DNA from: an uncultured Lachnospiraceae bacterium
Lineage (GTDB): Bacteria > Bacillota > Clostridia > Lachnospirales > Lachnospiraceae
DNA: 64,000 nucleotides
Assembly (NCBI GenBank): GCA_902801515.1
Contig: CADCII010000007.1
Span: forward strand, 1 to 64,000
Direction: 5' to 3'
Of the stretch, positions 1,935 to 44,998 are shown in pieces. Made by a program: the position numbers and the translations under genes. The stretch's first letter is position 1, and each line of letters opens with the position of its first letter. The notes beneath the pieces were generated by a model, which was given only the letters and a program-made list of their open reading frames with translations, was not told the DNA's origin and made no database searches.

Positions 1935-1969
1935 CCGCCGGCAGATTTGATTTCTGCCGGCGGTTTTTT
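1935..1969 (+). terminator. rho-independent terminator of the wall hydrolase gene
   Basis: An 11-bp perfect stem (CCGCCGGCAGA / TCTGCCGGCGG) with a 7-nt loop is followed by six T residues, 17 bases after the stop codon. Confidence 0.9.
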
Positions 1970-2211: not shown

Positions 2212-4011
2212 ATGAGAAAATTTTCTAATGTTGTCATCGGGCTTGTCGCGGCCGGAGTGTGCGCGCTCATAACCTATCTTACGCTCGATTCCAGTTTTAC
2301 CAATATCGTATATAACCTGTGCTTCCTTGCAGTCATGCTGATGATCATGGCAGTCGGCTTCGGGGTCGGTTTCACACGTCTGATACAGACCAGGAACGGG
2401 CTTGACCGGGCGACGAAGAAGATGCAGCAGCTGTCGGCAAGCGGCGGCAACATGGCGACGATCACAAGTCCCGGCGCCACACTGTTCGGAGTTCCGTATC
2501 TGGACGGGAAATATCAGGAGTATCTTTCATTTCTCCATAAGACCAACAGCCCGACGGACATCGGTGATTATATCGGTGAGTACGAGATCAACAACTATAC
2601 CCACCGCCGCCTTGTCGAGATGGTGCCGGATATCCTGACCAGCCTGGGCATTCTGGGAACTTTCGTGGGACTGGTACTCGGTCTTCGCGGATTCAATCCC
2701 ACCAGCTATGAGGCGATGTCCGGATCGGTTGAGACGCTGATCAAGGGTATCAAGGTCGCATTCGTGACATCAATCTACGGTCTGACTCTGTCCCTCGCAT
2801 TTTCCTACTGGCTGCGCGGGACCCTGACCTCGGTCTCCGAGTCTCTTGACCGGTTCCTGGACGCATACTATACGAGTGTTGTGCCGCCGACTGACGCGAC
2901 GGCTATGAACCATATCATCGCAAACCAGAATTCCCAGACGAAACTGATGCAGCAGATGCAGAAGGATCTGGCGAAGGAGGTTGCCCAGAGCCTGTCGGTG
3001 TCGATCCAGCCTACGGTGGAGCATCTTGACCAGACGATGGATAACTTCACTGACGTGGTCACGATGAATCAGGAAAAACTCATGGAGAACATCGCGGAGC
3101 GGGTCGCCCGCACGATGAAGCAGGAGTTCTTCTCTGAGTTTATTGAGATGCGCAGGGTAATGGGCGAGACGAACAAGACCCAGAGAGAGCATCTTCAGTT
3201 TATCCGTGAAGCTGAGAACCAGTTCCAGTCAGATGTTCTGGACGGCGAGATGCGGATGTCACAGGCAATGGAGGCATCTTCCGACGTTGTACTGCGCGCT
3301 CTTGACGCTATGAACCAGCAGGAGCAGATGGTGGCCGCATTCGTCGGCGATATGCAGAATGCGATGAACGGCATTGCCCAGACCAGCGATCTCAGCCTGC
3401 GGATGACGCAGCAGATGGATCACCTGATCAATATGAATGACGATGTTGCCGACAAGATGATGGAAGTCGCCAGGCTGAACGAGCAGTACACCAAGAGCCT
3501 GGCATCTGTGCAGGCGGCCAATTCGGATCTGTCAGAGGGTCTGTCGGTCATGAATGACGCGAATATCCGTATGACGGACCAGATCTCCAAGATGAACAGC
3601 GTCACTGTCGAGGCGCTCGACGAAGGACGCAAGGTGCAGGTGGCGTACAACAATTCCGCTTCCGAGTATCTTGACCAGATCAGAGAATCACAGACAGAGC
3701 TTACAACGCAGATGCAGACGCAGCAGGCGAATCTGAGAGAGTTTACGGATTACATGACCCAGGTCCTCTCCAGAATGTCTAAACTTACAGAGATTACCAG
3801 CCAGGCAGCGATGAATCTGACAGAGCGTGCTGACAAGATCAAGGCCATGGAAAACGGTACGGATATGACAGAGATGACTGCAGCTCTCAACCGGCTTGTT
3901 GAACTTGAAGAAGCCAGGGAACGCAGGGAGCAGCAGGAAAGGGCGGAAGCGGAAGAGCTCCGCAGCCAGGCCGAGGCGCCGCGCAGGAGAGGTTTCTTTT
4001 CCAGAGGCTGA
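2212..4011 (+). CDS. MotA/TolQ/ExbB-type ion channel protein with long coiled-coil tail (ZorA-like)
   Basis: Membrane subunit of an ion-driven motor, 599 aa, started at ATG 2212 behind an AAGGGGA site. Four hydrophobic segments are visible at about residues 6-24, 32-54, 141-160 and 180-201, with a cytoplasmic loop of roughly 85 residues between the second and third as in MotA. The third and fourth carry the family pattern (SLGILGTFVGLVLGL and a GI..AF.TS.YGL stretch). Residues ~220-590 form a Gln/Met/Glu-rich helical tail, far longer than in MotA, TolQ or ExbB, and ending in a basic RRRGFFSRG. Long tails like this are known from ZorA of Zorya anti-phage systems. The gene is followed 21 bases later by its OmpA-domain partner. 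No flagellar or Tol genes are nearby, so a motility role is unlikely. The function is inferred; the fold assignment is firm. Confidence 0.8.
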   Translation: MRKFSNVVIGLVAAGVCALITYLTLDSSFTNIVYNLCFLAVMLMIMAVGFGVGFTRLIQTRNGLDRATKKMQQLSASGGNMATITSPGATLFGVPYLDGKYQEYLSFLHKTNSPTDIGDYIGEYEINNYTHRRLVEMVPDILTSLGILGTFVGLVLGLRGFNPTSYEAMSGSVETLIKGIKVAFVTSIYGLTLSLAFSYWLRGTLTSVSESLDRFLDAYYTSVVPPTDATAMNHIIANQNSQTKLMQQMQKDLAKEVAQSLSVSIQPTVEHLDQTMDNFTDVVTMNQEKLMENIAERVARTMKQEFFSEFIEMRRVMGETNKTQREHLQFIREAENQFQSDVLDGEMRMSQAMEASSDVVLRALDAMNQQEQMVAAFVGDMQNAMNGIAQTSDLSLRMTQQMDHLINMNDDVADKMMEVARLNEQYTKSLASVQAANSDLSEGLSVMNDANIRMTDQISKMNSVTVEALDEGRKVQVAYNNSASEYLDQIRESQTELTTQMQTQQANLREFTDYMTQVLSRMSKLTEITSQAAMNLTERADKIKAMENGTDMTEMTAALNRLVELEEARERREQQERAEAEELRSQAEAPRRRGFFSRG

Positions 4012-4032
4012 ACCATATCAGGGGGAATATAA

Positions 4033-5061
4033 GTGAAAAAAGTCAACCGGAGAAAAATGAACGATGCAGGCGCCCACAATATATGGCGTTCCTATTCGGA
4101 TATGATGTCGGGACTGCTCCTTCTGTTCGTTCTGATCATGGCAGTGTGTCTGATGCAGGCACAGAAGAACTATAACGACAAACTGGCGGAGCAGGCGTCC
4201 AGGATCGAAACGCAGGATGAACTGGAGCAGACTCAGAACGCGCTTTCAACAAAAGAGTCCGAGCTGGAGCAACAGTCACTGACGCTGACGGATCTGCAGA
4301 CTGCTCTCGAGAAGCAGGCGGCAACTCTCGCTACCAGAGAATCGGAACTGGAAGCAGCCCAGGCAACCCTTGAAGAGCAGAAGACGCTTCTGTCCCAGCA
4401 GGAATCCGAACTTGAAGTGAGAGACGCAGCGCTGGTAACAAGCCAGGCGAAACTGGACGAACAGAATCAGCTGATGAGCGAACAGCAGGAGAAGATCGAC
4501 CAGATCATCGGTGTCAAGGCCGACCTGATCGATTCGCTGAACAAAGAATTCGCAACGAATCAGATCAATGTGGATATTGATTCACAGACAGGCGCGATCG
4601 TTCTGGATTCCAGTGTCCTGTTTGATCTGGATGAATATGTGCTCACGGACCTGGGCCAGGAGACGCTCTCACAGATCCTGCCGGTTTACTGCCAGGTTTT
4701 GCTGAGTGACGAGTACAGAGATTACGTGGCAGAGATCATCATCGACGGATACACGGACTCTCAGGGTGATTACCTGATGAACCTGACACTGTCCCAGAGC
4801 AGGGCTTACGCGGTGGCGGAATATCTGCTTCAGATCAGCGGAGGCTTCCTTGACAATAAACGTGCAGAGGATCTTCAGGAGAAGCTGACTGCGAACGGCA
4901 GATCCGAGTCGAATCTTATCTATAAGGAAGACGGTCAGGAGGACCAGGATGCCTCCAGGCGTGTTGAGGTAAAGTTCCGACTCAAGGACGAAGAGATGAT
5001 CCAGGAACTGTCCGACATCATAGCCGATGCCCGGACAGCGGGAGAGACTGGCGGCAATTGA
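4033..5061 (+). CDS. OmpA/MotB-type stator protein (ZorB-like)
   Basis: Partner of the preceding channel, 342 aa, with a GTG start at 4033 preceded by GGGGGA. The N-terminus is MotB/ZorB-like: one membrane helix (about residues 24-42) introduced by the motif SYSDMMSGLL, whose Asp23 corresponds to the ion-carrying Asp of MotB-type stators. Residues 45-165 are a heptad-rich coiled coil. Residues ~185-320 are an OmpA-like peptidoglycan-binding domain, recognisable by GYTDSQGDYLMNLTLSQSRA and a terminal RRVEVKFRL. The layout predicts anchoring to the wall, with the coil spanning the space between membrane and wall. The coil is longer than in typical MotB. It overlaps or abuts the next small gene, indicating one transcript. 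The motor assignment is from family knowledge; the work it drives is unknown. Confidence 0.8.
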   Translation: MKKVNRRKMNDAGAHNIWRSYSDMMSGLLLLFVLIMAVCLMQAQKNYNDKLAEQASRIETQDELEQTQNALSTKESELEQQSLTLTDLQTALEKQAATLATRESELEAAQATLEEQKTLLSQQESELEVRDAALVTSQAKLDEQNQLMSEQQEKIDQIIGVKADLIDSLNKEFATNQINVDIDSQTGAIVLDSSVLFDLDEYVLTDLGQETLSQILPVYCQVLLSDEYRDYVAEIIIDGYTDSQGDYLMNLTLSQSRAYAVAEYLLQISGGFLDNKRAEDLQEKLTANGRSESNLIYKEDGQEDQDASRRVEVKFRLKDEEMIQELSDIIADARTAGETGGN

Positions 5062-5078
5062 GAGATACGGGGGAATCA

Positions 5079-5426
5079 ATGACCATGCGGGGCAGAAAAG
5101 ATACCGTGAAGGCAGCGGAAGTTCTGAAAGCACAGGAAAGCGCAAAGATACCGGAAGTTCTGACAGAGCAGGAAAGCGCAGCTGCATTGGAAGCGCTGAA
5201 ACCACAGAAGAAAGTAAAGACACCTAAGGCGCAGAAAACCCGCAGGAATAAGAAGCATTCCCTTGCAGCGATGGTCCGTGCAGCGGCAGATCCGAAGAAG
5301 AGGGCTGTCATGTCCAGGGTATGGAACCGGCGCCAGAAGAGGCTGGACCATATTGCCGCTGTAGTGAGACTGGTGATCCGGTACCTGAATGCACGTGACC
5401 GGATGACGATCTACCGGAATAAATAA
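5079..5426 (+). CDS. small basic protein, third gene of the motor operon
   Basis: Unrecognised 115-aa product. The ATG at 5079 is preferred because GGGGGA lies seven bases upstream. A TTG at 5058, overlapping the stator stop codon, is an alternative giving 122 aa. The protein has no membrane segment or signal peptide. The first 60 residues are low-complexity Ala/Glu/Lys/Gln with repeating E-x-L patterns, then a highly basic stretch (KAQKTRRNKKHS) and a basic helical C-terminus (RRQKRLDHIAAVVRLVIRYL). It could bind nucleic acid, acidic lipid or the acidic channel tail. It shares a terminator with the two genes before it, so it is likely functionally tied to them. No function is claimed. Confidence 0.6.
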   Translation: MTMRGRKDTVKAAEVLKAQESAKIPEVLTEQESAAALEALKPQKKVKTPKAQKTRRNKKHSLAAMVRAAADPKKRAVMSRVWNRRQKRLDHIAAVVRLVIRYLNARDRMTIYRNK

Positions 5427-5434
5427 AAGATCTG

Positions 5435-5480
5435 ACAGGACTGTCCTGCCGTATATCCGGCAGATGCAGTCCTGTTTATT
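5435..5480 (+). terminator. terminator of the motor operon
   Basis: Nested inverted repeats: outer ACAGGACTG (5435-5443) with CAGTCCTGT (5467-5475), inner CTGCCG (5446-5451) with CGGCAG (5458-5463), followed by a T-rich tract. It lies directly after the small basic gene and before the V-ATPase promoter. Confidence 0.75.
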
Positions 5481-5542
5481 TATTGCCTGAGCCAAGTCTG
5501 GTCTTGCCGATGGGCAGTTCAGCTTTGGCAGCGGATGTTTCG

Positions 5543-5571
5543 TTGACTGGCGATATGGCGCGTGCTAAAAT
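5543..5571 (+). promoter_or_regulatory. promoter of the V-type ATPase operon
   Basis: TTGACT at 5543-5548 and TAAAAT at 5566-5571 with exactly 17 bases between, 37 bases upstream of the first gene of the operon and downstream of a terminator. Confidence 0.65.
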
Positions 5572-5608
5572 TGAAAAGATTGATTAAGCCCCAAAGGAGG
5601 TGAAGGTA

Positions 5609-5920
5609 ATGGCCAAAAGTACCATCGATGCGATCCGTGAGGTGGAAAAACAGACACTGGAAGCGGAGAAGCAGGCGGCGGCCGATGCAAGGATTCTTTC
5701 TGCAAAGACGAAAGAAGATGCAGAAAAACTGGTCAGAGATACGCTTGCCAAGGCAGAAGCTGACGCTGATGCGATGCTGAAGGAGGCCGAAGCAAAGCAG
5801 AAGGAACTGGTCGACCAGAAGTCCAGAGAGACTGTGAAGGCAGTCGAGGACCTGAAAGCTGCTGCCGAAGCGAAGAGCAAAGAGGCGGTCAGGGCCATCC
5901 TGGATATCATCAGCGGCTGA
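5609..5920 (+). CDS. ntpF: V-type ATP synthase peripheral stalk subunit (G/H type)
   Basis: First gene of the nine-gene V-ATPase operon, 103 aa. ATG 5609 is chosen over the in-frame GTG at 5600 because a strong AAAGGAGG site ends at 5600, eight bases from the ATG. The product is an almost uninterrupted charged Ala/Glu/Lys helix without membrane segments, as expected for the stalk subunit (archaeal subunit H, E. hirae NtpF) that pairs with subunit E and holds the stator against rotation. The sequence alone is low complexity; the call rests mainly on its place immediately before ntpI. Confidence 0.8.
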   Translation: MAKSTIDAIREVEKQTLEAEKQAAADARILSAKTKEDAEKLVRDTLAKAEADADAMLKEAEAKQKELVDQKSRETVKAVEDLKAAAEAKSKEAVRAILDIISG

Positions 5921-5986
5921 GACGGGCGCTGACAGATTCATAAGAGGCAGCAAATATCCGCTGCCGGAAAGGAGAGAAAACAGCCT

Positions 5987-8490
<2,504 letters not shown>

Positions 8491-8545
8491 TCAGGAATCA
8501 TTGAAAGAAGCAGTTAAGTACACAAAGTAGACGAGGAGACGGGAA

Positions 8546-9136
8546 ATGGCAGGTTTGGATAAGATTTTAGAGGACATTCGCAGCGAATCAGCTGCGGCGG
8601 TCGCCTCTGTCACCGGCAAGGCACAGGCCGAGCGGGACAAGGTGCTCGCTGAAGCTGCAAAGGACGCGAATGCCCAGGCTGAAAAGATCCTGTCCCATGC
8701 AAAGAGCCAGGCAGATGACCTGATCGCCAGAGCGGATTCTGCCGCTCAGCTTCAGAGACGCCGCATGCTTCTGGAGACCAAGCAGGAGCTGATCGCGTCT
8801 GTGATCGATAAGGCAAAGCAGGCCATACTGGAACTTCCGGACAGTGATTATTTTGATCTGATCCTTAAACTGATCGGCGGCAATGCGCTTCCGAGAGAGG
8901 GTGAGATCTGCTTTAACAGAAAAGACTTTGCCCGTCTGCCGAAGGATTTCGCATCGAAACTCGTTGCATCCCTTCCGGCCGGAGCAAAACTGAATGTATC
9001 AAAAGACGAAGCGGACATCGACGGCGGATTCATCCTGAAGTATGACGGGATCGAACAGAATCTGTCTCTTGATGAGATCTTTGAGGAGAATCGGGACCGC
9101 ATGACTGACGCAGCAGGGAAGTTACTGTTTTCATAA
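8546..9136 (+). CDS. ntpE: V-type ATP synthase subunit E
   Basis: Peripheral stalk subunit of 196 aa that pairs with the G/H-type subunit and contacts the A3B3 head. The N-terminal ~90 residues are a long Ala/Gln/Glu/Lys helix (KAQAERDKVLAEAAKDA). The C-terminal globular part ends with the family pattern GGFILKYDGIEQNLSLDEIF. It lies 55 bases after ntpK with a GACGAGGAGAC ribosome site and 12 bases before ntpC. Confidence 0.9.
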   Translation: MAGLDKILEDIRSESAAAVASVTGKAQAERDKVLAEAAKDANAQAEKILSHAKSQADDLIARADSAAQLQRRRMLLETKQELIASVIDKAKQAILELPDSDYFDLILKLIGGNALPREGEICFNRKDFARLPKDFASKLVASLPAGAKLNVSKDEADIDGGFILKYDGIEQNLSLDEIFEENRDRMTDAAGKLLFS

Positions 9137-9148
9137 AGGAGGAGAGCC

Positions 9149-10114
9149 ATGGCCGAACAATACATATATGCGGTCGCGCGTATCCGTTCCCGTGAACTGT
9201 CTCTGCTCAGCGAGGCCGTGATCTCCCAGCTGTCTGCGGCAGCAACGGAAGAGGACTGCCGGCGGATCCTGAACGAGAAGAACTGGGGAAACCCGGATCT
9301 TCCCAGCGAGGAGATGTTCCAGGAGGAAAATAAGAAGACCTGGGCGCTTATCCGCGAGCTCGTACCGAACAATATGCAGATCTTTGATGTGTTCCGCCTG
9401 GAGAAGGACTACCACAACCTCAAGGCGGCGATCAAAGAGAGCTGCATCGACGGCATTCACCCGGGGATCTTTGCCGAAGGAGGAACCATTCCGGTCAAGG
9501 ATATCCAGCAGGCGGTCGAAGAATCAGATTATGATGCACTCCCCGAAACCATGCGCCAGGTCGCGCAGGATGCGAAGGAGACACTGCTTCAGACCAGAGA
9601 CGGCCAGCTGTGTGATGTTATGATTGACCGTGCGGCACTGGAAGAGATCCGCAAGGCAGGTGAGAAGACCGGCGAACCCCTGCTCCGGGATTACGGAGAG
9701 CTGGTATGTGCCACGGGCAATATCAAGACAGCGGTCCGTGCGGCAAAGACCGGTAAGTCCAGACAGTTCCTGGAGAAAGCACTGGCACCGTGCTCCACAC
9801 TGGATGTGGCAGCGCTTGCGGATGCTGCAGCAGCGGGGACCGACGCTGTCGTCGCGTATCTGGACCATACGGTCTACGCAGATGCCATTGACGAGTTAAA
9901 TGAATCTGTGGCGAGCTTCGAGCGCTGGTGCGACAACCGGATGATCGAGACCATCAAGCCGCAGATCCACAATCCTTTCGGCATCGGTCCGATTGCGGCG
10001 TACATTCTTGCCCGCGACAATGAGATCAAGACGGTGCGTATTATTCTGGCGGCAAAGAGAAACGGCCTGCCGGAAGAGATGCTCCGGGAAAGGGTAAGGG
10101 AAATGTATGTATAA
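9149..10114 (+). CDS. ntpC: V-type ATP synthase subunit C (d-like)
   Basis: Central-stalk adaptor of 321 aa that docks the shaft onto the c-ring. It is an all-helical protein with the family's terminal segment NPFGIGPIAAYILARDNEIK, which includes the conserved Pro and the Arg-Asp-Asn-Glu cluster. Preceded by AAAGGAGGAG. Its 3' end overlaps ntpG by eight bases, suggesting translational coupling. Confidence 0.92.
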   Translation: MAEQYIYAVARIRSRELSLLSEAVISQLSAAATEEDCRRILNEKNWGNPDLPSEEMFQEENKKTWALIRELVPNNMQIFDVFRLEKDYHNLKAAIKESCIDGIHPGIFAEGGTIPVKDIQQAVEESDYDALPETMRQVAQDAKETLLQTRDGQLCDVMIDRAALEEIRKAGEKTGEPLLRDYGELVCATGNIKTAVRAAKTGKSRQFLEKALAPCSTLDVAALADAAAAGTDAVVAYLDHTVYADAIDELNESVASFERWCDNRMIETIKPQIHNPFGIGPIAAYILARDNEIKTVRIILAAKRNGLPEEMLRERVREMYV

Positions 10115-10436
10115 GGCAGCTGTTATGGGGGACTGGGATTCCATCTACGGATTCTCGGCACTTGGCCTTGACACATTTCGCGTTGAGGCGGAAACGAGTG
10201 CGGAAGAAGCTGCGGATACGCTGAAGAAACTGTCCCAGAGTAAATATGAGGTCATCTACATCACAGAATCGCTGGCAAAGCGCATTCCTGCAGAGATAGA
10301 CAAGTACCGCCTGATGCCGAGCCCTGCGGTCATTCTGATCCCGGGCATCTACGGCAATACGGGAGACGGCCTTAAGGCAGTCAAGAAGTCTGTCGAGCAG
10401 GCAGTCGGAAGCGATATCATATTCGGAAATACATAA
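10107..10436 (+). CDS. ntpG: V-type ATP synthase subunit F
   Basis: Small shaft subunit of 109 aa (F type; NtpG in E. hirae nomenclature) that binds subunit D and activates rotation. It has the compact Rossmann-like pattern of the family: AVMGDWDSIYGFSALGLDTF at the start, YEVIYITESLAKRI in the middle, and PAVILIPGI near residues 70-80. Overlaps the end of ntpC by eight bases. Confidence 0.9.
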   Translation: MYKAAVMGDWDSIYGFSALGLDTFRVEAETSAEEAADTLKKLSQSKYEVIYITESLAKRIPAEIDKYRLMPSPAVILIPGIYGNTGDGLKAVKKSVEQAVGSDIIFGNT

Positions 10437-10477
10437 GGCTTGGAAGCTTTTAACCAATTCAAAGAAAGGCACAGGAT

Positions 10478-12250
10478 ATGGCAAAGGGAACAATCAAGAA
10501 GGTGTCCGGACCGCTCGTCGTCGCGACTGGCATGCGTGACGCGAACATGTTCGACGTGTGCCGTGTCTCTGACAGAAGACTGATCGGTGAGATCATTGAG
10601 ATCCACGGAGATGAGGCATCCGTTCAGGTCTATGAGGAGACTGCGGGACTGGCTCCGGGAGAGCCGGTCGAATCCACGGGAGCTCCGCTGAGCGTTGAAC
10701 TGGGGCCCGGCCTGATCGGAAGTATCTATGACGGTATTCAGAGACCGCTGGTCGAGATCATGGAGCAGACACAGTCTAACCTCCTCTCCCGCGGTATCGA
10801 AGTCCCGTCGCTCAACCGCGAGAAGGTATGGCATTTCACACCCGTCGCCAAGGCAGGCGACAAGGTCATCGGCGGAGACGTGATCGGAACGGTCCAGGAG
10901 ACACATATCGTAACGCAGAAGATCATGATCCCCCCGAACACAGAGGGAACCATCAAGTCCATTCAGGAAGGCGACTTCAAGGTTACGGATACCGTCTGTG
11001 TTCTTACGAAGGAAGACGGAACCGAGCTGGAGATCAACCTGATCCAGAAATGGCCGGTCCGCCGCGAGAGACCGTACGCTCAGAAACTGGCTCCTGACAA
11101 GCCGCTGATCACAGGACAGAGAGTTATCGACGCCCTGTTCCCGATCGCCAAGGGCGGCGTCGCCGCTATCCCGGGCCCCTTCGGCTCAGGAAAGACGGTC
11201 GTACAGCATCAGCTGGCAAAATGGGCAGAGGCAGACATCGTCGTCTATATCGGCTGCGGCGAGCGCGGAAATGAGATGACGGACGTTCTGAACGAGTTCC
11301 CGGAACTGAAGGACCCCAAGAGCGGATACTCCCTGATGGAGCGTACCGTTCTGATCGCGAATACCTCCGACATGCCGGTTGCGGCACGTGAGGCATCCAT
11401 CTACACAGGAATCACTATCGCTGAGTACTTCCGTGACATGGGCTATTCCGTGGCACTGATGGCAGACTCCACCTCCCGCTGGGCAGAGGCCCTGCGTGAG
11501 ATGTCCGGCCGTCTGGAAGAGATGCCCGGTGAGGAAGGTTACCCGGCGTACCTGTCATCCAGACTTGCACAGTTCTATGAGAGAGCCGGCCGCGTCGTCA
11601 CCCTCGGATCTGAGGGAAGAGAAGGCGCCCTGTCCGCGATCGGTGCAGTTTCACCGGCAGGCGGCGATATCTCCGAACCTGTCTCCCAGGCGACGCTGCG
11701 TATCGTCAAGGTCTTCTGGAGACTGGACGCAGACCTGGCTTACCAGAGACATTTCCCGGCAATCAACTGGCTGAGTTCCTACTCACTGTACCTGGATTCC
11801 CTGGGCAAATGGTTTGACTCCCAGACAGACGGCGAGTGGATGAGACTCCGCGGTGAGATGATGAGGATCCTGCAGCAGGAGAGTGAGCTGAATGAGATGG
11901 TACAGCTGGTCGGTATGGACGCGCTGTCCTGGCCGGACCGTCTGACCATGGAAGCTGCCAGATCCATCCGTGAGGACTACCTGAACCAGAATGCGTTCAT
12001 GGATACCGATACCTACACGACACTGGAGAAGCAGCATCTGATGATGAAACTGATCCTTGCGTACTATGACAAGGGCAAAGAAGCCCTGGCGCAGGGAGCG
12101 ACCATCAATTCACTAGTGAATCTTCCCTGCCGTGAAGAGATCGGACGTTACAAATATACGGAAAATGAAAAGATCCATTCGGAGTACGACAGGATCATGA
12201 ATAACCTGGAAGAAGCGATCCGCGACGCGGTAGCGAAGAGCCAGGAGTAA
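10478..12250 (+). CDS. ntpA: V-type ATP synthase catalytic subunit A
   Basis: Catalytic nucleotide-binding subunit, 590 aa, the usual length. The Walker A loop is GPFGSGKT at residues 233-240, and the catalytic region GERGNEM and Walker B-like [18 protein letters not shown] follow. The bulge domain typical of A subunits, absent from F-type beta, lies between residues ~110 and 200. It works as an A3B3 hexamer in ATP synthesis or hydrolysis in the cytoplasm. Ribosome site AAAGAAAGG upstream of ATG 10478. Confidence 0.96.
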
Positions 12251-12262
12251 GGGGGCATAACA

Positions 12263-13633
12263 ATGGCAAAAGAATACAGAACCATTCAGGAAGTTGCCGG
12301 CCCTCTGATGATGGTGCGCGGCGTAGAGGGCGTTGCCTATGATGAGCTCGGTGAGATCGAGCTGTCAGACGGCGAGAAGAGAAGATGCCGTGTCCTTGAG
12401 ATCGATGGCGGAAACGCACTGGTCCAGCTGTTTGAGAGCTCTACCGGTATCAATGTTGAGAGTTCGAAGGTCCGTTTCCTTGGCCGCTCCATGGAGCTTG
12501 GCGTATCGGAAGATATGCTTTCCAGAGTCTTCGACGGACTCGGCCGTCCTATCGATAACGGTCCGGAGATCCTTCCGGATGAGAGACGTGACGTTAACGG
12601 CCTGCCGATGAACCCGGCAGCCCGCGCATACCCGGAAGAGTTCATTCAGACGGGCGTCTCTGCGATCGACGGACTGAATACGCTGGTCAGAGGACAGAAG
12701 CTGCCGATCTTCTCGGCGTCCGGCCTTCCCCATGCGCAGCTGGCGGCACAGATCGCCAGACAGGCGAAGGTTGTTGGAACCAGCGAACCGTTCGCAGTCG
12801 TATTTGCTGCAATGGGTATCACATTCGAGGAATCCAACTACTTCATCGAATCCTTCCGTGAGACGGGTGCTATCGACAGAGCAGTTCTGTTTATGAATCT
12901 TGCAAATGACCCTGCCGTCGAGCGTATCGCGACTCCGCGAATGGCACTGACTGCGGCAGAGTATCTTGCATTTGAAAAAGGAATGCATGTCCTGGTCATC
13001 ATGACAGACATTACCAACTACGCAGACGCCCTGCGTGAGATCTCCGCAGCCCGCAAGGAAGTTCCGGGACGCCGCGGATATCCGGGATATATGTATACCG
13101 ACCTGGCTTCCCTGTATGAAAGAGCAGGACGTCAGAAGGGCAGAAACGGATCCATCACCATGATCCCGATCCTTACCATGCCTGAGGATGACAAGACGCA
13201 CCCGATCCCGGACCTTACCGGATACATCACAGAGGGTCAGGTTATCCTGAGCCGTGATCTCTACCGCAAGGGCCTCGAGCCGCCCATCGACGTTCTTCCG
13301 TCGCTGTCGCGTCTGAAGGATAAGGGTATCGGCGAAGGCAAGACCAGAGCAGACCATGCGAATACCATGAACCAGCTGTTCGCCGCATATGCGCGCGGCA
13401 AGGACGCGAAGGAACTGATGGTCATCCTGGGTGAAGCAGCCCTGACCGATGTCGACAAACTGTACGCTAAGTTCGCCGATGAATTCGAAGAGCGCTATGT
13501 CAACCAGGGATACCGTACCGACCGTTCCATCGAAGAGACTCTGGATATTGGCTGGGAACTTCTGAGGATCCTGCCCAGAGGCGAGCTGAAGAGAATCAAG
13601 GACGAATACCTTGACAAGTACTATTCGCGATAA
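12263..13633 (+). CDS. ntpB: V-type ATP synthase subunit B
   Basis: Regulatory subunit of the A3B3 head, 456 aa. It resembles subunit A in fold but has no Walker A loop: the corresponding region reads [17 protein letters not shown], the hallmark of B subunits. The arginine-finger region is near [15 protein letters not shown]. Starts 12 bases after ntpA behind an AAGGGGGC site. Confidence 0.96.
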
Positions 13634-38807: not shown

Positions 38808-41800
38808 ATGAAAAAGAAACTTGCCCTCATTATGACAATGTCGTTGCTTCTCACATCAGTATCCCCGGTGAATGCAGCAGGCACGGAAGTAATAGAGATT
38901 GCAGAGGAAGAGAATCTGTCTGCTTCATTTACAGAGGATGAGGAAGACCCGGAGATTGAGATCGTGGAAGATCCGGAAACCGTGCCCGAAGCAGATGTAT
39001 CGGATGAAGAAGTTATACCGGAAGAGGATGGAACAGACGACGAAATCTTCACAGAAGATATGTCTTTGGAGGATGTTTCCGGTCTGATTGAGGATGAAGA
39101 TGCCGGAAACGGTATGATCAGCGAGATCTTTTCATCTGAGCCTGTGCCGGTTGGTGATGCTGAAGATGGCTATGGCAGGGCAGACCATGGAGAGTTATTG
39201 ATGTCAGCCGCATCTGAGCCGGACGGACCAGAGTATTATGGCAGCCAGCTGGCGGGAAACCAGAAGGCTATGTATGAATTGCTGAAGACCGGGAACTGGC
39301 AGCTTGGCACGTCGAATAGTTCAGGGGAAATACCATATACCATGGCCTATTCACCGGACACAGATTATTCTTTTGAGTTAGAAAGTACAGATTATGCATC
39401 AAGTGAGGTGTACAAGAGCATCCGCCAGAAATTGTATTCAGATGCATATACTGCATTTGACGCATATCTCTATGATTATCCGGAAGAATCATTCTGGATT
39501 GACAGGTCAGGATTTGGATTTGCCGTATCCTATAACCCATACGAAACTGCTCCGTATCATTTCTCAATAATAAAAATGCGTCTTAATGCTTATGAACGCT
39601 GGACAGGCGCAAAAAAGCAGCTGGCGGATCTGGAGACTTATACGGACCGCTCCGTGGCTCAGATACAGGCAGTCGACGGTTATTCCACAATGACCCCAGG
39701 AGAAAAACTGAAGGCAGTGCATGATCATATCTGCGACTTGGTGTCATACGGAGATGCGTCAACTACCATTGAGGCACAGCATACTCCCTACGGGGCATAT
39801 GATTTCGACCATAAGGTGGTCTGCGAAGGATATTCAAAACTGTTTAAGATACTGGTTGATAAACTGGGGATAACAGACAATGTCCTGGTATCGGGGATTG
39901 CGTATTCTCCTGACGGTTCAGGCGGTCCTCATATGTGGAATGTAGTATCGCTGGAGAGCAGCTGGTATCTGCTGGATGCGACCTGGGACGACCAGGATGA
40001 GAGTTCTACGGTTTATTACGACTATTTCCTTGCAGGATCCGGCAGTAAAGGATTCTCTTACTGGACGATTGGAGAGGAGCATGAGGCTCATGCGAATCTC
40101 TCCAATGGCGGTGGAGAATTTATTACACCGACACTGTCAGTAACCATGTATCATCAGCGGAAACAGACAGGAGTCACAGCGACGTGCACTGAGGCCGGGA
40201 GCGCAACCATAGTCTGCGGACTGCATCCGAAGATGGGAGGAGGATATGAAGTACCCCCAGAAACAGAGACGATTCCTGCGATGGGGCATCAGCCAGTCAC
40301 CGATGCGGCAGTTGCTGCAACCTGTACTGAACCTGGGCTGACCGAGGGAAGCCACTGTTCCGCCTGCGGCATGATTATTGTCTCACAGGAAACGGTTGCA
40401 GCGACAGGCCATTCCTGGGGCTCTCCCAGCTGGAAGTGGACTGAGGATCATACAGGCGCGACGGCAACATTTACATGTAAAAATGACAGTTCGCACAGTG
40501 AAAGTATACCGGCGGAAATCTCATCTGCTGGAACAGATCCGACCTGTACTGCAGGCGGAGAGGCTGTATATACGGCTGAAGTATCGTTTGAAGGAAATAA
40601 ATACACAGATGAGAAAACCGTACAAAACTCAGCGTTGGGCCATGACTGGGGTGATGCGACATATACATGGACAGACGATTATACGAGCGTAACAGCAGAG
40701 CGTGTCTGCACGCGTGATGAAACCCATACAGAGAGCGAAACAGTACAGACAACCTCAGAGATTACAAAAGCAGCAACCTGTACAGAAAAAGGAGAAACCA
40801 CCTATACCGCAGTATTTACGAAAGAAGGATTTGAAACTCAGACTGAGAAAGTACCGATCCCGGAAAAAGGGCATGTGGAAACAGATCTTCCGGCGGTTGC
40901 GGCAACCTGTACTAAAACAGGCCTTACGGCAGGAAAGAAGTGCTCGGCGTGCGGAGAGATTCTTGTACAGCAGGAAGTAACTGCAGCTCTCGGCCATGCT
41001 TTTGGGGAATGGACAGAAACAAAACCGGCAACCTGTACCGAAGCCGGCAGTGAAGAACGTGTATGTTCTCGCTGCGGTGAGAAGGAAACTTCCGGTATTT
41101 CTCCGACAGGTCACGACTGGGGCGGACCTAATTGGGCATGGCTAGATAATAATACTCGGGCAGATGCCAGGTTCACCTGCAAAAACGATTCCAGTCATGT
41201 GGAACACGTACCTGCAACGACCACGCAAAAAGTAATAAAAGAGGCGACATGTGGAACAACCGGCACGGTTGTCTATATGGCAGTTGTTGAATTTGAGGAC
41301 AATACCTATACAGGCCAGAAGCAGGCAACCACTCCCATGGCGGATCATAACTGGGGTGAACCAGAATATACATGGGCAAATGACAATTCAGAAGTGACCG
41401 CGGTACGAGTCTGCTTAAATGATAATAGCCACAGACAGAACCGGATATCACAGACAACTTCTGAACAGACAAAAGCAGCCACCTGTACAGAAAAAGGCGA
41501 AACTACCTATACGGCTGTATTCAACAATGGGTTTGAAACACAGACTAAAACAGTAGCCAATATTGATCCGACAGGCCATGATTATGGAGCCCCTGTCTGG
41601 AAATGGGCTGAAGACTATTCTTCCGCCACAGTTACACTCACCTGCAAAAATGACAGTACTCATATCATAGAACTGGATGGAGAACTGACATCGGAAATCA
41701 CGGCTGATGCCTCGTATACGAGTACTGGTGTAAAAACATATACGGCAGCTGCCGAATATGAAGGAGAAGAGTATCAGGATCAGAAAACAGAAACGATCCC

Positions 41801-44147
41801 AGTTCTTTCCCCGAGTGGAGTTACTGACCAAGGTCTGAGCTGGGAAGTTGCTGACGGAGTACTGACGGTCAGCCTTAAGGAAGATGCCCAGAGCACAGAG
41901 ATCCCGGATTACGCAGCGGCAGATGATGCCCCGTGGGCTGAAGCTGCTGCAGAACTGAATGTAACAAAGATAGTTGTAAAAGACAAAATCACCAAGGTTG
42001 GATCAAATTCATTTGCCGGGCTTGGGAGTCTGGTAGTGATGGAACTTCCCCAGAGCCTTGAGTACCTCGCAGACGACTCGATAGACGCTGCTTTACTCAG
42101 TACGATAAATGTAATCTATTCCGGCACAGAATCCGAGTGGGAGACGCTGACGCAGGGAACCGCTTTCCGGGATGTAAATATGATATCCTCGCATACGCAT
42201 AAATGGGGAAACTGGTATCAGAAAATTCCTGCTACCTGCACAGCAGATGCTATCCTGGAACGAAAGTGTAACATCTGTCAGACAGCTGAGACCATGACGG
42301 ATAAGGAAAATCCGGCAACTGGCCATGACTATGATAATCCTGTCTGGGAGTGGGCTGAAGATTATACTTTTGCCAAGGTTACACTCACCTGCAAAAATGA
42401 CAATACCCATGTCATAGAACTGGATGGAGAACTGACGTCGGAAATCACGGCTGATGCTTCGTATACGAGTACTGGTGTAAAAACATATACAGCAGTTGCC
42501 GAATATGAAGGGAACGAGTATCAGAATCAGAAAACAGAAGAGATTCCCGTACTTTCCCCGAGTGGAGTTACTGACGAAGGGCTGAGCTGGGAAATTGCTG
42601 ACGGAGTACTGACGATCGGCTTGACAGAGGGCATCCAGAATGCGGAGATACCGGATTATGAATCTGAAGATGATGCCCCGTGGGCTGAAGCCCCGTGGGC
42701 TGAAGCTGCTGCAGAACTGGAAGTATCAAAGATAGTCGTTGAAGAGGGCATTACCAAGGTTGGTGCAAATGCATTTACAGGTGTAGAGAGCCTGGATGAA
42801 ATAAGCCTTCCTCAGAGTCTTAAAGAACTTGCAGACGATTCGATAGAGGGCACTGTGCTCAGTACGATAAATGTGATCTATGCCGGTTCAGAATCTGAGT
42901 GGGAGACGCTGACGCAGGGAACCGCTTTCCAGGATGTAGATATGACGTCCACACATACGCATGAATGGGGAAACTGGTACCAGAAAATTCCTGCCACCTG
43001 CACAGCAAACGCCATCCTGGAACGTAAGTGTAAGATTTGTCAGATGGCGGAGACTATGACAGATGAGGAAAATCCGGCAACTGGCCATGACTATGATAAT
43101 CCTGTCTGGGAGTGGGCAGATGATTATTCTTCCGCCAAAGTTACGCTCACCTGCAAAAATGACAGTACTCATATCATAGAACTGGATGGAGAACTGACAT
43201 CGGAAATCACGGCTGATGCTTCGTATACGAATACTGGTGTGAAAACATATACAGCAATCGCCGAATATGGAGAAAAAGTGTATCAGGATAAGGCAACGGA
43301 AGTAATCCCCGTACTTTCCCCGAATGGAGTTACTGACGAAGGACTGAGCTGGGAAATTGCTGACGGAGTACTGACGATCGGCTTGACAGAGGGCACCCAG
43401 AATGCTGAGATACCGGATTATGAATCTGAAGATGATGCCCCATGGGCAGAAGCAGCAGTTGCGTTGAAAGTAACAAAGATCATCGTAAAAGAGGGCATTA
43501 CCAAGGTCGGGTCATATGCATTTACATGCAGGAAAGACCTGAGTGAAATAAGCCTTCCTCAGAGTCTTGAGGAACTTGCGGATGATTCAGTAGATGACAC
43601 TGTGCTCAGTACGGTAGATGTTAACTATGCCGGTTCAGAATCCCAGTGGGAGAGACTGACACAGGGAACGTCTTTCCAGAATGTCAATATGACATCTACG
43701 CATGTACACAGCTGGGGCTCCGGTGTGGTGACAAAACCAGCAACAACAGCTGCCGCCGGCATCAGAACATACAAGTGCTCCTGCGGCAAGATAAAAACGG
43801 AAGCTATTCCACGATTAAAGATAGTTGAAAAGATAACCGTTTCAAAGAAGCCAACGATTCAGAAACCGGCACCTGCAAAGGGCAAGATCACCGTTAAGTG
43901 GAAGCACTTCAAGAATAAAACCAAGAACGGTAAGAAGATCTGGAAGCCAATCAAGAAGGTCCAGATCCAGTGTGCAACAGACAGTGGTTTCAGGAATATT
44001 GTAAAGAAAGCTGATGTTAGTAAAGGCAAGACGAAGACCACGATCAAGGGATTGAAGAAGAAGACAACATACTATGTCCGAGTCAGATACTTCGATGGAG
44101 TCGGATATTCAGCGTGGAGCAAAGTGAAGAAGGTTAAAACAAAATAA
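38808..44147 (+). CDS. giant secreted transglutaminase-like protein with CxxC repeats
   Basis: Exported 1779-aa protein: signal peptide (KKKLALIMTMSLLLTSVSPVNA), a very acidic stretch to about residue 120, then a transglutaminase/protease-like domain with a plausible triad Cys339 (VVCEGYSKLF), His375 (PHMWNVV) and Asp390 (LLDATWDD). Residues ~450-1000 are repeated beta modules with paired cysteines (ATCTEAG, CSACG, CSRCG) and W-x-W strands. From ~1002, 1251 and 1505 a ~250-residue module repeats three times, containing a short leucine-rich-like stretch (KIVVKEGITKVG) and CNICQ-type pairs. The C-terminus (~1675-1779) is a Lys-rich fibronectin-III-like domain. No LPxTG motif was seen. Such proteins of clostridia are probably adhesins or wall-modifying enzymes. 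It looks more AT-rich than its neighbours and is bracketed by copies of one intergenic element. Confidence 0.8.
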   Translation: MKKKLALIMTMSLLLTSVSPVNAAGTEVIEIAEEENLSASFTEDEEDPEIEIVEDPETVPEADVSDEEVIPEEDGTDDEIFTEDMSLEDVSGLIEDEDAGNGMISEIFSSEPVPVGDAEDGYGRADHGELLMSAASEPDGPEYYGSQLAGNQKAMYELLKTGNWQLGTSNSSGEIPYTMAYSPDTDYSFELESTDYASSEVYKSIRQKLYSDAYTAFDAYLYDYPEESFWIDRSGFGFAVSYNPYETAPYHFSIIKMRLNAYERWTGAKKQLADLETYTDRSVAQIQAVDGYSTMTPGEKLKAVHDHICDLVSYGDASTTIEAQHTPYGAYDFDHKVVCEGYSKLFKILVDKLGITDNVLVSGIAYSPDGSGGPHMWNVVSLESSWYLLDATWDDQDESSTVYYDYFLAGSGSKGFSYWTIGEEHEAHANLSNGGGEFITPTLSVTMYHQRKQTGVTATCTEAGSATIVCGLHPKMGGGYEVPPETETIPAMGHQPVTDAAVAATCTEPGLTEGSHCSACGMIIVSQETVAATGHSWGSPSWKWTEDHTGATATFTCKNDSSHSESIPAEISSAGTDPTCTAGGEAVYTAEVSFEGNKYTDEKTVQNSALGHDWGDATYTWTDDYTSVTAERVCTRDETHTESETVQTTSEITKAATCTEKGETTYTAVFTKEGFETQTEKVPIPEKGHVETDLPAVAATCTKTGLTAGKKCSACGEILVQQEVTAALGHAFGEWTETKPATCTEAGSEERVCSRCGEKETSGISPTGHDWGGPNWAWLDNNTRADARFTCKNDSSHVEHVPATTTQKVIKEATCGTTGTVVYMAVVEFEDNTYTGQKQATTPMADHNWGEPEYTWANDNSEVTAVRVCLNDNSHRQNRISQTTSEQTKAATCTEKGETTYTAVFNNGFETQTKTVANIDPTGHDYGAPVWKWAEDYSSATVTLTCKNDSTHIIELDGELTSEITADASYTSTGVKTYTAAAEYEGEEYQDQKTETIPVLSPSGVTDQGLSWEVADGVLTVSLKEDAQSTEIPDYAAADDAPWAEAAAELNVTKIVVKDKITKVGSNSFAGLGSLVVMELPQSLEYLADDSIDAALLSTINVIYSGTESEWETLTQGTAFRDVNMISSHTHKWGNWYQKIPATCTADAILERKCNICQTAETMTDKENPATGHDYDNPVWEWAEDYTFAKVTLTCKNDNTHVIELDGELTSEITADASYTSTGVKTYTAVAEYEGNEYQNQKTEEIPVLSPSGVTDEGLSWEIADGVLTIGLTEGIQNAEIPDYESEDDAPWAEAPWAEAAAELEVSKIVVEEGITKVGANAFTGVESLDEISLPQSLKELADDSIEGTVLSTINVIYAGSESEWETLTQGTAFQDVDMTSTHTHEWGNWYQKIPATCTANAILERKCKICQMAETMTDEENPATGHDYDNPVWEWADDYSSAKVTLTCKNDSTHIIELDGELTSEITADASYTNTGVKTYTAIAEYGEKVYQDKATEVIPVLSPNGVTDEGLSWEIADGVLTIGLTEGTQNAEIPDYESEDDAPWAEAAVALKVTKIIVKEGITKVGSYAFTCRKDLSEISLPQSLEELADDSVDDTVLSTVDVNYAGSESQWERLTQGTSFQNVNMTSTHVHSWGSGVVTKPATTAAAGIRTYKCSCGKIKTEAIPRLKIVEKITVSKKPTIQKPAPAKGKITVKWKHFKNKTKNGKKIWKPIKKVQIQCATDSGFRNIVKKADVSKGKTKTTIKGLKKKTTYYVRVRYFDGVGYSAWSKVKKVKTK

Positions 44148-44351: not shown

Positions 44352-44597
44352 ATGAGACAAGTGAATATCCTCGAAGCAAAAACCGATTTTTCCAAGCTGA
44401 TCCGTCTTCTGGAAACAAAGAAAGAAGATTTCATCACAGTTGCCAGAAACGGAAAACCTGTGGTCAAGATTACACTCATCAATGAGACGCCTGTTTCAAA
44501 GCGTATCGGTATCGCAAAAGGCAAATTCACAGTTAAAGGTGACTTTGATGCTGATAATGATGCTATTGCGGAATCAATGACGGGAGGCATTTTATGA
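44352..44597 (+). CDS. type II antitoxin, Phd/YefM family
   Basis: 81-aa antitoxin. ATG 44352 follows a GGGGGG run; an upstream in-frame start would give a non-conserved leader. The N-terminus has the Phd/YefM DNA-binding fold (VNILEAKTDFSKLIRLLETK and FITVARNGKPVVKITLI). The C-terminus (AESMTGGIL) should wrap the toxin. Overlaps the toxin start by four bases (ATGA). The palindrome just upstream is the likely autoregulatory site. Confidence 0.88.
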   Translation: MRQVNILEAKTDFSKLIRLLETKKEDFITVARNGKPVVKITLINETPVSKRIGIAKGKFTVKGDFDADNDAIAESMTGGIL

Positions 44598-44998
44598 ATC
44601 TGCTTCTTGATACCCATGTTGCTGTATGGGCTCTGAACGATGATCCCGCACTTTCTGAAAAAGCACGAGAATTAATCCTTGACCCAGATAACACTATTTA
44701 TTACAGCACGGTCTCAGTATGGGAGGTGCTTCTCAAGCACTCACGCCGGCCAGACAATATTCCATTTGATGAAAAAGACTTTTCCGAAGGATGCAGGGAA
44801 GCGGGGTTTGTTCCTCTCGCTCTGGCAGATAAGCACATCCTTGCCGTGCGTTCTTTGTCCAGGCCGGAGGGTGTCAAAGAGCACAACGACCCGTTTGACC
44901 GCCTGCTCCTGGCGCAGGCCAAAGTGGAGAACCTGTCTTTCCTCACGCACGACGAACTAATTCCAGGCTATGTGGAAAAGTGCATCATTCCAGTCTAA
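44594..44998 (+). CDS. PIN-domain toxin (VapC-like RNase)
   Basis: 134-aa PIN-fold ribonuclease paired with the preceding antitoxin. Conserved acidic residues are visible: LLLDTHVAVWAL (Asp6), SVWEVLLK (Glu near residue 45), DPFDRLLLAQA (Asp near 97-100) and LTHDELIPGY (Asp near 118), so the Mg-dependent active site appears intact. Targets of this PIN class are usually tRNA or rRNA; the specific target is not predictable. Confidence 0.88.
   Translation: MNLLLDTHVAVWALNDDPALSEKARELILDPDNTIYYSTVSVWEVLLKHSRRPDNIPFDEKDFSEGCREAGFVPLALADKHILAVRSLSRPEGVKEHNDPFDRLLLAQAKVENLSFLTHDELIPGYVEKCIIPV

Follow-up and report, generated by a model that had tools for sequence, protein, structure and literature searches.

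A conserved ZorAB-type motor pair of Lachnospiraceae found apart from Zorya effectors, with a possible role in cell-wall homeostasis

The window analysed here is a stretch of 64,000 nucleotides from an uncultured Lachnospiraceae bacterium, and it carries two adjacent genes, A and B, whose products resemble the ZorA and ZorB subunits of the Zorya systems. Tentatively, and as a call that falls a little short of even, we read this pair as an ion-driven motor of the ZorAB type that stands on its own: carried stably on the chromosome by a clade of Lachnospiraceae, it would lie outside Zorya defence and most likely serve cell-wall homeostasis. The motor architecture is well supported, while the output of the motor is something we infer. 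We know of no house-keeping motor of this superfamily described in monoderms except the flagellar stators, and the open-access literature on ZorA/ZorB and Zorya, in those parts that were available to us, holds no description of this clade. An effector-less and near-universal ZorAB pair with a long stalk, found in a gut genus, makes the solo role of the ZorAB module directly testable, and with it the exchange between defence machinery and envelope machinery. It also means that matches to ZorA and ZorB alone should not be taken as a defence system.

Gene A occupies positions 2212-4011 of the forward strand (ATG start, 599 residues) and is followed on the same strand by gene B at 4033-5061 (GTG start, 342 residues). 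A third gene, an open reading frame (ORF) also on the forward strand, covers 5058-5426 (TTG start, with an alternative ATG at 5079; 122 residues). All three genes are real and their coordinates are correct. Behind the third gene stands an intrinsic-terminator-like hairpin (5434-5476, forward strand, -28.2 kcal/mol, z -7.6), in agreement with the single terminator that had been proposed in an earlier, sequence-only reading of this DNA. The single promoter of the same proposal is less secure: a candidate upstream of A (2080-2109) matches the consensus at 9 of 12 positions, but the four promoter-like sites of the upstream region barely exceed the 2.5 (sd 1.6) seen in shuffled sequences. Further upstream, at 130-1917 of the forward strand, the CBP gene encodes a secreted choline-binding-repeat protein with a C-terminal NlpC/P60 domain (Pfam Choline_bind_3, 1.4e-38; NLPC_P60, 4.7e-19), likely a wall hydrolase to judge from these domains. 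Because it has a terminator-like hairpin of its own (1935-1963, forward strand; 11 pairs, 9 of them G-C, then TTTTTT), this gene is probably transcribed separately from A, B and the third gene.

Protein A is made of a membrane core (residues ~1-222) and a helical cytoplasmic tail of ~370 residues ending in RRRGFFSRG. In a single-chain structure prediction the core (residues 1-220) reaches a pLDDT of at least 86 in 20 of its 22 ten-residue blocks, and the tail, predicted at lower confidence, is helical up to residue 586; the earlier description of A as a membrane protein with such a tail is borne out to this extent. According to the accessible part of one report (PMC12505986), terminal extensions occur on many non-flagellar A proteins, their function being given as unknown. 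The best solved-structure match of the A family profile is ZorA, and the PADLOC ZorA model matches A at 8e-22. Protein B has a membrane helix with Asp23, which sits within SYSDMMSGLL, then a long helical stalk to residue ~175 and an OmpA-type peptidoglycan-binding domain. Its single-chain prediction gives one continuous helix from residue 20 to 175, followed by the OmpA-type domain (mean pLDDT 86). The PADLOC ZorB1 model matches B at 2.8e-69, and among solved structures the B profile best finds the ZorB of 8VVI (1.5e-28); against the ZorB1 equivalog model B scores 82.3 bits, below the cut-off of 400. By sequence and by predicted fold alike, A and B are members of the ZorA and ZorB families, a ZorA-family motor subunit and its ZorB-family partner, which, for the motor core, does away with the earlier idea of a motor of an undescribed kind.

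Residue conservation was followed across the loci of the family. From 113 loci, 10 duplicates (B identical over its last 150 residues) and the locus L029 were removed to leave 102. For the residue counts, four loci at contig ends where A could not be read were then set aside, together with five with a short A. In all of the remaining 93, Asp23 of B and the ion-path residues Thr150 and Ser187 of A are invariant, a pattern that would assign the pair to the 5:2 type of ion-driven motor, and the same is true of Asp242 and Arg257, the OmpA-type wall-binding residues of B. We take a conserved Asp and Arg spaced 15 residues apart to be the peptidoglycan-binding signature of OmpA domains, and D242/R257 match it; the invariant pair thereby marks the domain of B, at the sequence level, as a putative wall binder of this type. 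Since the key residues are invariant, both the ion drive and the wall anchoring of the motor are supported by the sequences. In the machine that we propose, two copies of B would be encircled by five copies of A.

A flagellar or Tol stator can be ruled out, as A is the only MotA_ExbB (PF01618) match in the whole genome of the window (searched at a threshold of E 0.1), its best match is ZorA, and FliG_C has no match in this genome. Contrary to the flagellar stators MotAB and MotPS, A resembles ZorA and not MotA, B is one long helix, and FliG is lacking both from the window's genome and from 17 of the 20 carrier genomes. The Tol-Pal and Ton systems (TolQR, ExbBD) differ in other ways: here A has a long cytoplasmic tail, B combines a long stalk with an OmpA domain, and the window's genome holds no second gene of the MotA/TolQ/ExbB family. 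The sequence-only reading had called the pair an orphan ZorAB-like motor, not flagellar and without Tol genes, and this stands. The other three of the 20 carriers do have FliG_C.

The A-B pair forms one conserved family of 102 de-duplicated loci in Lachnospiraceae and unplaced Clostridia, and the two genes are adjacent on one strand at all 98 loci in which both can be read, an arrangement that goes beyond chance. Within the window's genus the pair is near-universal (18 of 19 genomes) and vertically inherited, and both genes are under strong purifying selection. Among the sampled genomes of the bacterial family, only 15-16 of 299 are carriers, so that the pair is lacking from most genera; patchy presence above the genus level would also be expected of a defence gene. 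Co-occurrence with MreB, considered as a clue to cell shape, is uninformative, MreB being present in 294 of these 299 genomes. Trees were computed from 50 rows, thinned at 72% identity. The A-B family (with L029) is recovered as one group with a support of 97 in the A+B tree and 95 in the B tree; a grouping of the family with L207, a ZorABCD locus, obtains only 68 and 45, respectively. A mixture-model tree without L029, which raised long-branch warnings, gives 89/87 for the family as one group and 25/72 for ZorABCD as one group, and in the A-only tree the family is not recovered as a single group. It is placed away from the ZorABE group, and its nearest relatives outside the family are Zorya loci.

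Could the pair then be a reduced Zorya? A-B would sense the damage done by phage to the envelope, and the action on DNA would come from an effector, unlinked or unknown, or from the basic third protein in the case of the genus. A defence role is the less likely one, and we hold this form of it to be unlikely. It would fit with the closeness of the Zorya loci, with the PADLOC matches (8e-22 for A, 3e-69 for B), with the very basic third protein (26% K+R), and with the genes downstream of the pair at one genus locus, L097, which we take to be CRISPR-like. In the literature, as far as it was accessible, ZorA and ZorB are described as parts of defence systems; in the tested ones, however, defence needs more than ZorAB, according to the available portions of two reports (PMC8565338; deletion results in PMC11890865). 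No ZorC-, ZorD- or ZorE-like ORF is present at any of the 102 family loci, which extends what had already been noticed in the window, whereas the same B profile, elsewhere in the phylum, finds A-B-C-D or A-B-E at 11 of 14 loci. With the ZorE references, L211, L214 and L215 do yield ZorE-like ORFs; three of the five references come from these loci. EH_Signature, the ZorC domain, is likewise absent from the 20 carrier genomes, that of the window included, with a model that also misses the ZorABCD control G435. Partial matches to the ZorD model occur in 12 of the 20 carriers, at up to 419 bits (a single helicase match of 170 bits in the window's genome), and could be counted in favour of defence; they are however of the size of the second helicases of the control genomes G435, G354 and G639 (395-447 bits), and full-length ZorD matches, at 1092-1299 bits, are found only in three of the four controls. 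Vertical inheritance across the genus also argues against a phage-defence role, as do the plasmid and phage collections, where the only matches lie below 60% identity and cover at most 55% of B. Viral contigs gave three pattern matches, none of them related to A by tblastn.

Like type I Zorya (ZorA-ZorD; 8QYD, 8VVN), the pair has adjacent ZorA and ZorB homologues in identical order, the same membrane-core fold, a long helical ZorA tail, an OmpA-type wall domain, and the conserved Asp and Thr/Ser. It differs in having no adjacent ZorC or ZorD, in being a near-universal vertical trait of a genus, with an extra basic gene and a wall hydrolase as neighbours, and in the stalk of B, whose 124-204 residues in the family are roughly two to three times the 50-75 measured at the 15 Zorya loci examined. 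With type II (ZorA, ZorB, ZorE; 8VVI) it shares the ZorA/ZorB core, the ZorB of 8VVI being the solved structure that the B profile matches best, but there is no ZorE at the locus and the family falls outside the ZorABE group. Neither the long stalk nor the wall-hydrolase gene had been remarked upon in the sequence-only reading. Envelope or wall type may be an alternative explanation of stalk length, given that 11 of the Zorya loci with short stalks belong to the window's phylum. Elsewhere in that phylum, one locus (L208) has an A-B pair without effectors and yet a short stalk (68).

The stalk of the family is long enough to span the Gram-positive periplasm. As a helix of ~20 nm, it would keep B permanently attached to the wall, in contrast to Zorya, where B is proposed to touch the wall only after damage. 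Driven by ion flow, A would rotate relative to the wall together with its long cytoplasmic tail, and the tail would report or apply force in the cytoplasm, this output step being the weakest part of the proposal. Put in full, this would be a permanent, wall-tethered rotary ZorAB machine of monoderm gut bacteria, neither flagellar nor defensive, coupling the ion gradient to wall growth or remodelling via a periplasm-spanning stalk and a rotating tail; so specific a version is possible but doubtful.

The neighbouring wall hydrolase might take part in the same process, that is, in wall sensing or remodelling during growth. A homologue with Choline_bind and NlpC/P60 domains lies upstream of A at all 15 genus loci whose sequence extends that far. 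Outside the genus, CBP-type neighbours are found at only three of 83 loci (L019, L117, L023), which leaves a single clade as the main basis of the link to the wall. Choline-binding-type repeat matches number 33 in G142 and 28 in G105; such repeat proteins being commoner in some relatives, adjacency of the CBP gene is less telling there. The neighbour clusters of the family loci contain no partner gene common to the whole family.

Downstream genes bring in an ion-conductance or homeostasis device, in which the pair would be a gated leak under wall-tension control, tied to an adjacent ion-pumping ATPase. A V-type ATPase operon does lie downstream in 12 of 19 genus loci, L018 and L105 have downstream ATP synthase-like genes that are presumably F-type, and the ion path is invariant. 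Outside the genus, however, no recurring ATPase neighbour was recognised among the neighbour clusters listed, and a tail as conserved as that of A, with its 377-388 residues at each of the 16 genus loci measured, would be superfluous for a mere channel. We regard this device as very improbable.

To return to the wall-homeostasis motor, the basic tip of the A tail and, in the window's genus, the third protein would form a local output adaptor. The third protein is small, with a variable N-terminal part and, at the C-terminus, a conserved amphipathic stretch whose last residues are TIYRNK. As a candidate for the general output of the motor it has to be given up: the gene is restricted to the window's genus and therefore cannot play this part. 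Its conservation held only within those bounds, where 14 clear members and a profile match at L109 give support at 15 of 18 loci, while most of the A-B family, including the Blautia and Butyrivibrio records, has A-B without it. A basic-Gly-Phe/Leu pattern, loosely defined, is found at the tail tip of 45 of 94 A proteins. Together with the third protein's conserved basic C-terminal stretch, such a tip could also serve cell division or the positioning of the chromosome, by gripping a division or nucleoid target and pulling or twisting it against the wall. In Gram-negatives, a role in division is stated for the related TolQRA motor in the accessible part of PMC12583513. This role nevertheless seems improbable, as no recurring division gene was recognised beside A-B among the neighbour clusters listed, and the tip pattern is mostly lacking in the Butyrivibrio-type branch.

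Basic ORFs directly behind B were picked up by a loose scan at 10 of 83 non-genus loci. L020, L117 and L118 were considered as carrying third-gene relatives, and none was retrieved by the third-protein profile. Basic ORFs of similar layout, missed by this profile, are present at the genus loci L018, L097 and L105. Built from the 14 third proteins and run against 10,125 ORFs, the profile added a single member from the genus, at 4e-4.

The window takes up bases 1-64000 of its contig, which is 113.6 kb long and belongs to a 3.08 Mb genome. Near its start lie the gene for a ZorA-family motor subunit (A, 2212-4011), that for a ZorB-family subunit carrying an OmpA-type wall domain (B, 4033-5061), and a small, very basic third gene (5058-5426) directly followed by a strong terminator-like hairpin. 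The sequence-only reading had noted a three-gene motor operon here, and that observation is sound. Upstream of A is the gene of a choline-binding-repeat protein (CBP, 130-1917), which combines these repeats with an NlpC/P60 domain and has its own terminator-like hairpin, while a V-type ATPase operon starts downstream of the third gene (PF01496 in 5987-8002). Farther along, the window encodes a 1779-residue protein with BspA-type leucine-rich repeats (38808-44147; LRR_5, 4.1e-18), near which stands a small PIN-domain gene (44594-44998).

The A-B motor is inherited as a near-universal trait within the window's genus: B is found in 18 of 19 genomes, and in 8/8 of those of good quality. In a family sample of 299 genomes from 298 genera (thresholds 1e-5 for A and 1e-10 for the B profile), A matched in 16 genomes and the B profile in 28. 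The motor pair was counted in 15 of these 28 (E < 1e-100), the other 13 scoring far lower. In the five low scorers inspected (L218-L222, from G190, G234, G232, G102 and G088), no A lies beside the B-profile match; these Lachnospiraceae proteins are 413-554 aa long and carry an OmpA-type domain close to the B profile, adjoined at L219-L221 by what we take to be phosphatase- or kinase-like genes. A scan of 84,980 species genomes gave at least 325 stretches encoding a B relative, other OmpA-domain proteins possibly included, and the best 80 were kept. Among these best 80 of at least 325, the titles name Lachnospiraceae, or unplaced Clostridia, Clostridiales, Eubacteriales or Eubacterium, and the genera include Blautia, Butyrivibrio, Marvinbryantia, Parablautia, Porcincola, Candidatus Limivivens and Candidatus Merdiplasma. 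"Lachnospiraceae loci" is our short label for the whole set, unplaced Clostridia and the like included; 102 loci were kept of 113, after removal of 10 duplicates and of L029, a locus with no B at threshold. The genus contributes 19 of the 102, from 18 genomes, one genome being divided between L102 and L108. Wherever both genes can be read (98/98 loci), A and B sit side by side on the same strand (gap -53 to 173 bases, median 12). The genes flanking them vary by clade and, judged mostly from their sequences, are presumably housekeeping genes. In searches of open-access literature on ZorA, ZorB and Zorya, no description of this clade came up, which is not proof of absence.

Are the effectors of Zorya anti-phage defence (ZorC, ZorD and ZorE; C, D and E) present alongside? 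With the same B profile, 398 phylum genomes searched at 1e-20 gave 14 matches besides the window, none in its family. The order A-B-C-D is seen at eight of these loci and A-B-E at three; L208, L213 and L216 have neither. PADLOC recognized ZorC in all four C proteins submitted (L204, L206, L209, L217), and confirmed ZorD for the L206 D protein and ZorE for the L211 E protein (one submitted each). At 1e-5, references from these phylum loci and from E. coli and Spirosoma picked out no ORF resembling C, D or E in the Lachnospiraceae loci (0/102). Of the 11 loci that serve as positive controls, seven are also sources of reference proteins; the independent recoveries are those at L205, L207, L210 and L212. 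Genome-wide, EH_Signature (ZorC) was found in 0/20 carriers of the A-B pair versus 3/4 controls. The ZorD model gave partial matches in 12/20 carriers (at most 419 bits), as it did with extra helicases of the controls, full-length matches appearing only in 3/4 controls. Since the carrier matches are partial, like those helicases, a ZorD encoded elsewhere in the carrier genomes appears unlikely. The A-B pair is a ZorAB that lacks defence partners at its locus and has a lengthened wall stalk. One 6.5 kb record, labelled Bacteriophage (L225, MT837639.1), carries A-B and then two long ORFs resembling Zorya C-D in order and size; either a contig of bacterial origin or a Zorya carried by a phage could account for it.

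Counted from the membrane Asp23 as far as the OmpA-type domain's first strand, the B stalk is 124-204 residues long across 93 loci (162-204 for 16 loci of the genus), compared with 50-75 residues in 15 Zorya loci of four phyla, 11 of which come from the window's phylum and may differ from Lachnospiraceae in envelope type. A heptad period, one of five periods tested, is seen in stalk residues 45-158 of the window's B (p 0.0005); as a helix they would measure 17 nm, and the predicted helix 20-175 reaches about 23 nm if the membrane part is counted. A review puts the width of the periplasm at 22 nm for B. subtilis and 16 nm for S. aureus, and describes this as contested (PMC8141598). The authors of the Zorya study suggest that ZorB is off the wall at rest and binds it upon phage push or damage (PMC11890865). 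A stalk long enough for constant wall reach would do away with such a trigger, and mainly for this reason we infer that the motor has a different job. Wall homeostasis is the best guess for its function, at slightly less than an even chance. Elsewhere in the phylum, the effector-less A-B of L213 (G586, 8632-13008) has a longish stalk of 134 residues and is followed by genes that we take to resemble sleB and ypeB (spore cortex lysis); it is possibly an independent wall-related ZorAB case.

Across 93 loci, Trp18, Ser20, Ser22 and Asp23 of B are invariant, as are its Thr241, Asp242, Asn250, Arg257, Arg309, Arg310 and Glu312, and Thr150, Thr186, Ser187 and Ser194 of A. Zorya defence requires the Asp equivalent to Asp23, the wall domain and the tail, according to the same article (PMC11890865). 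Three near-relative pairs for each of A and B gave dN/dS values of 0.03-0.07 and 0.05-0.09, respectively; the third gene's, from two pairs whose silent sites are nearly saturated, were 0.11-0.25. Across 10 genus loci, the distances of A and B parallel those of NtpI, encoded next to them (rho 0.93 and 0.81; pairs not independent). Porcincola- and Blautia-type A tails tend toward a basic-Gly-Phe/Leu tip (RRRGFFSRG, KGKFGLFR); this loose pattern occurs in 45/94 A proteins and is mostly missing from Butyrivibrio-type tails.

A CBP homologue, with both choline-binding repeats and NlpC/P60, precedes A in 15/15 genus loci having enough upstream sequence, the remaining four of 19 ending too early. All five loci scanned for it (L018, L097 and L105 of the genus, L019 and L117 of other genera) encode a large secreted protein that carries a transglutaminase-like domain. 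The V-type ATPase flanks 12 genus loci; the outer flanks elsewhere presumably consist of F-type-ATPase-like genes (L018, L105), CRISPR-like genes (L097) and metabolic genes (L019, L117). Because these flanks differ, rearrangement seems to have left the wall proteins beside the motor, on neighbour evidence from one clade plus L023, where a choline-binding CAP-domain protein lies downstream. Two different rotary ATPases, V-type and F-type ATP synthase-like, thus adjoin the same motor operon.

The third gene was counted over the 18 genus loci with a readable B end, whose post-B basic ORFs are 52-181 residues long. Searching with the window's protein recovered a homologue in 12/18, and L101 and L102 were assigned through the common C-terminal end. 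The last 45 residues of these 14 proteins were made into a profile and searched against the 10,125 ORFs of the 102 loci. L109 was gained in this way (4e-4), whereas the profile missed the basic ORFs in L018, L097 and L105 and those after B in L020, L117 and L118; all six resemble the third gene only in layout and charge. What the third proteins have in common is a basic amphipathic C-terminal stretch with a mostly TIYRK-like end, which L094 lacks. At L019 there is no room for a third gene, the next gene being 44 bases away. L018, L097 and L105 have both a post-B ORF outside the profile and the transglutaminase-like gene upstream of A.

In trees (LG+F+R5), the Lachnospiraceae pairs and L029 form one group versus the Zorya rows, with support of 97 (A+B) and 95 (B); the link of this group to the ZorABCD locus L207 is weaker, at 68 and 45. 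The A-only tree did not recover the Lachnospiraceae group; under a mixture model without L029, the pairs group at 89/87. L029 itself (G129, 5229-10169) has an A-type gene and then a very divergent B of 557 aa (weak match, 4e-5), inside what we take to be an exopolysaccharide/Wzz-like locus.
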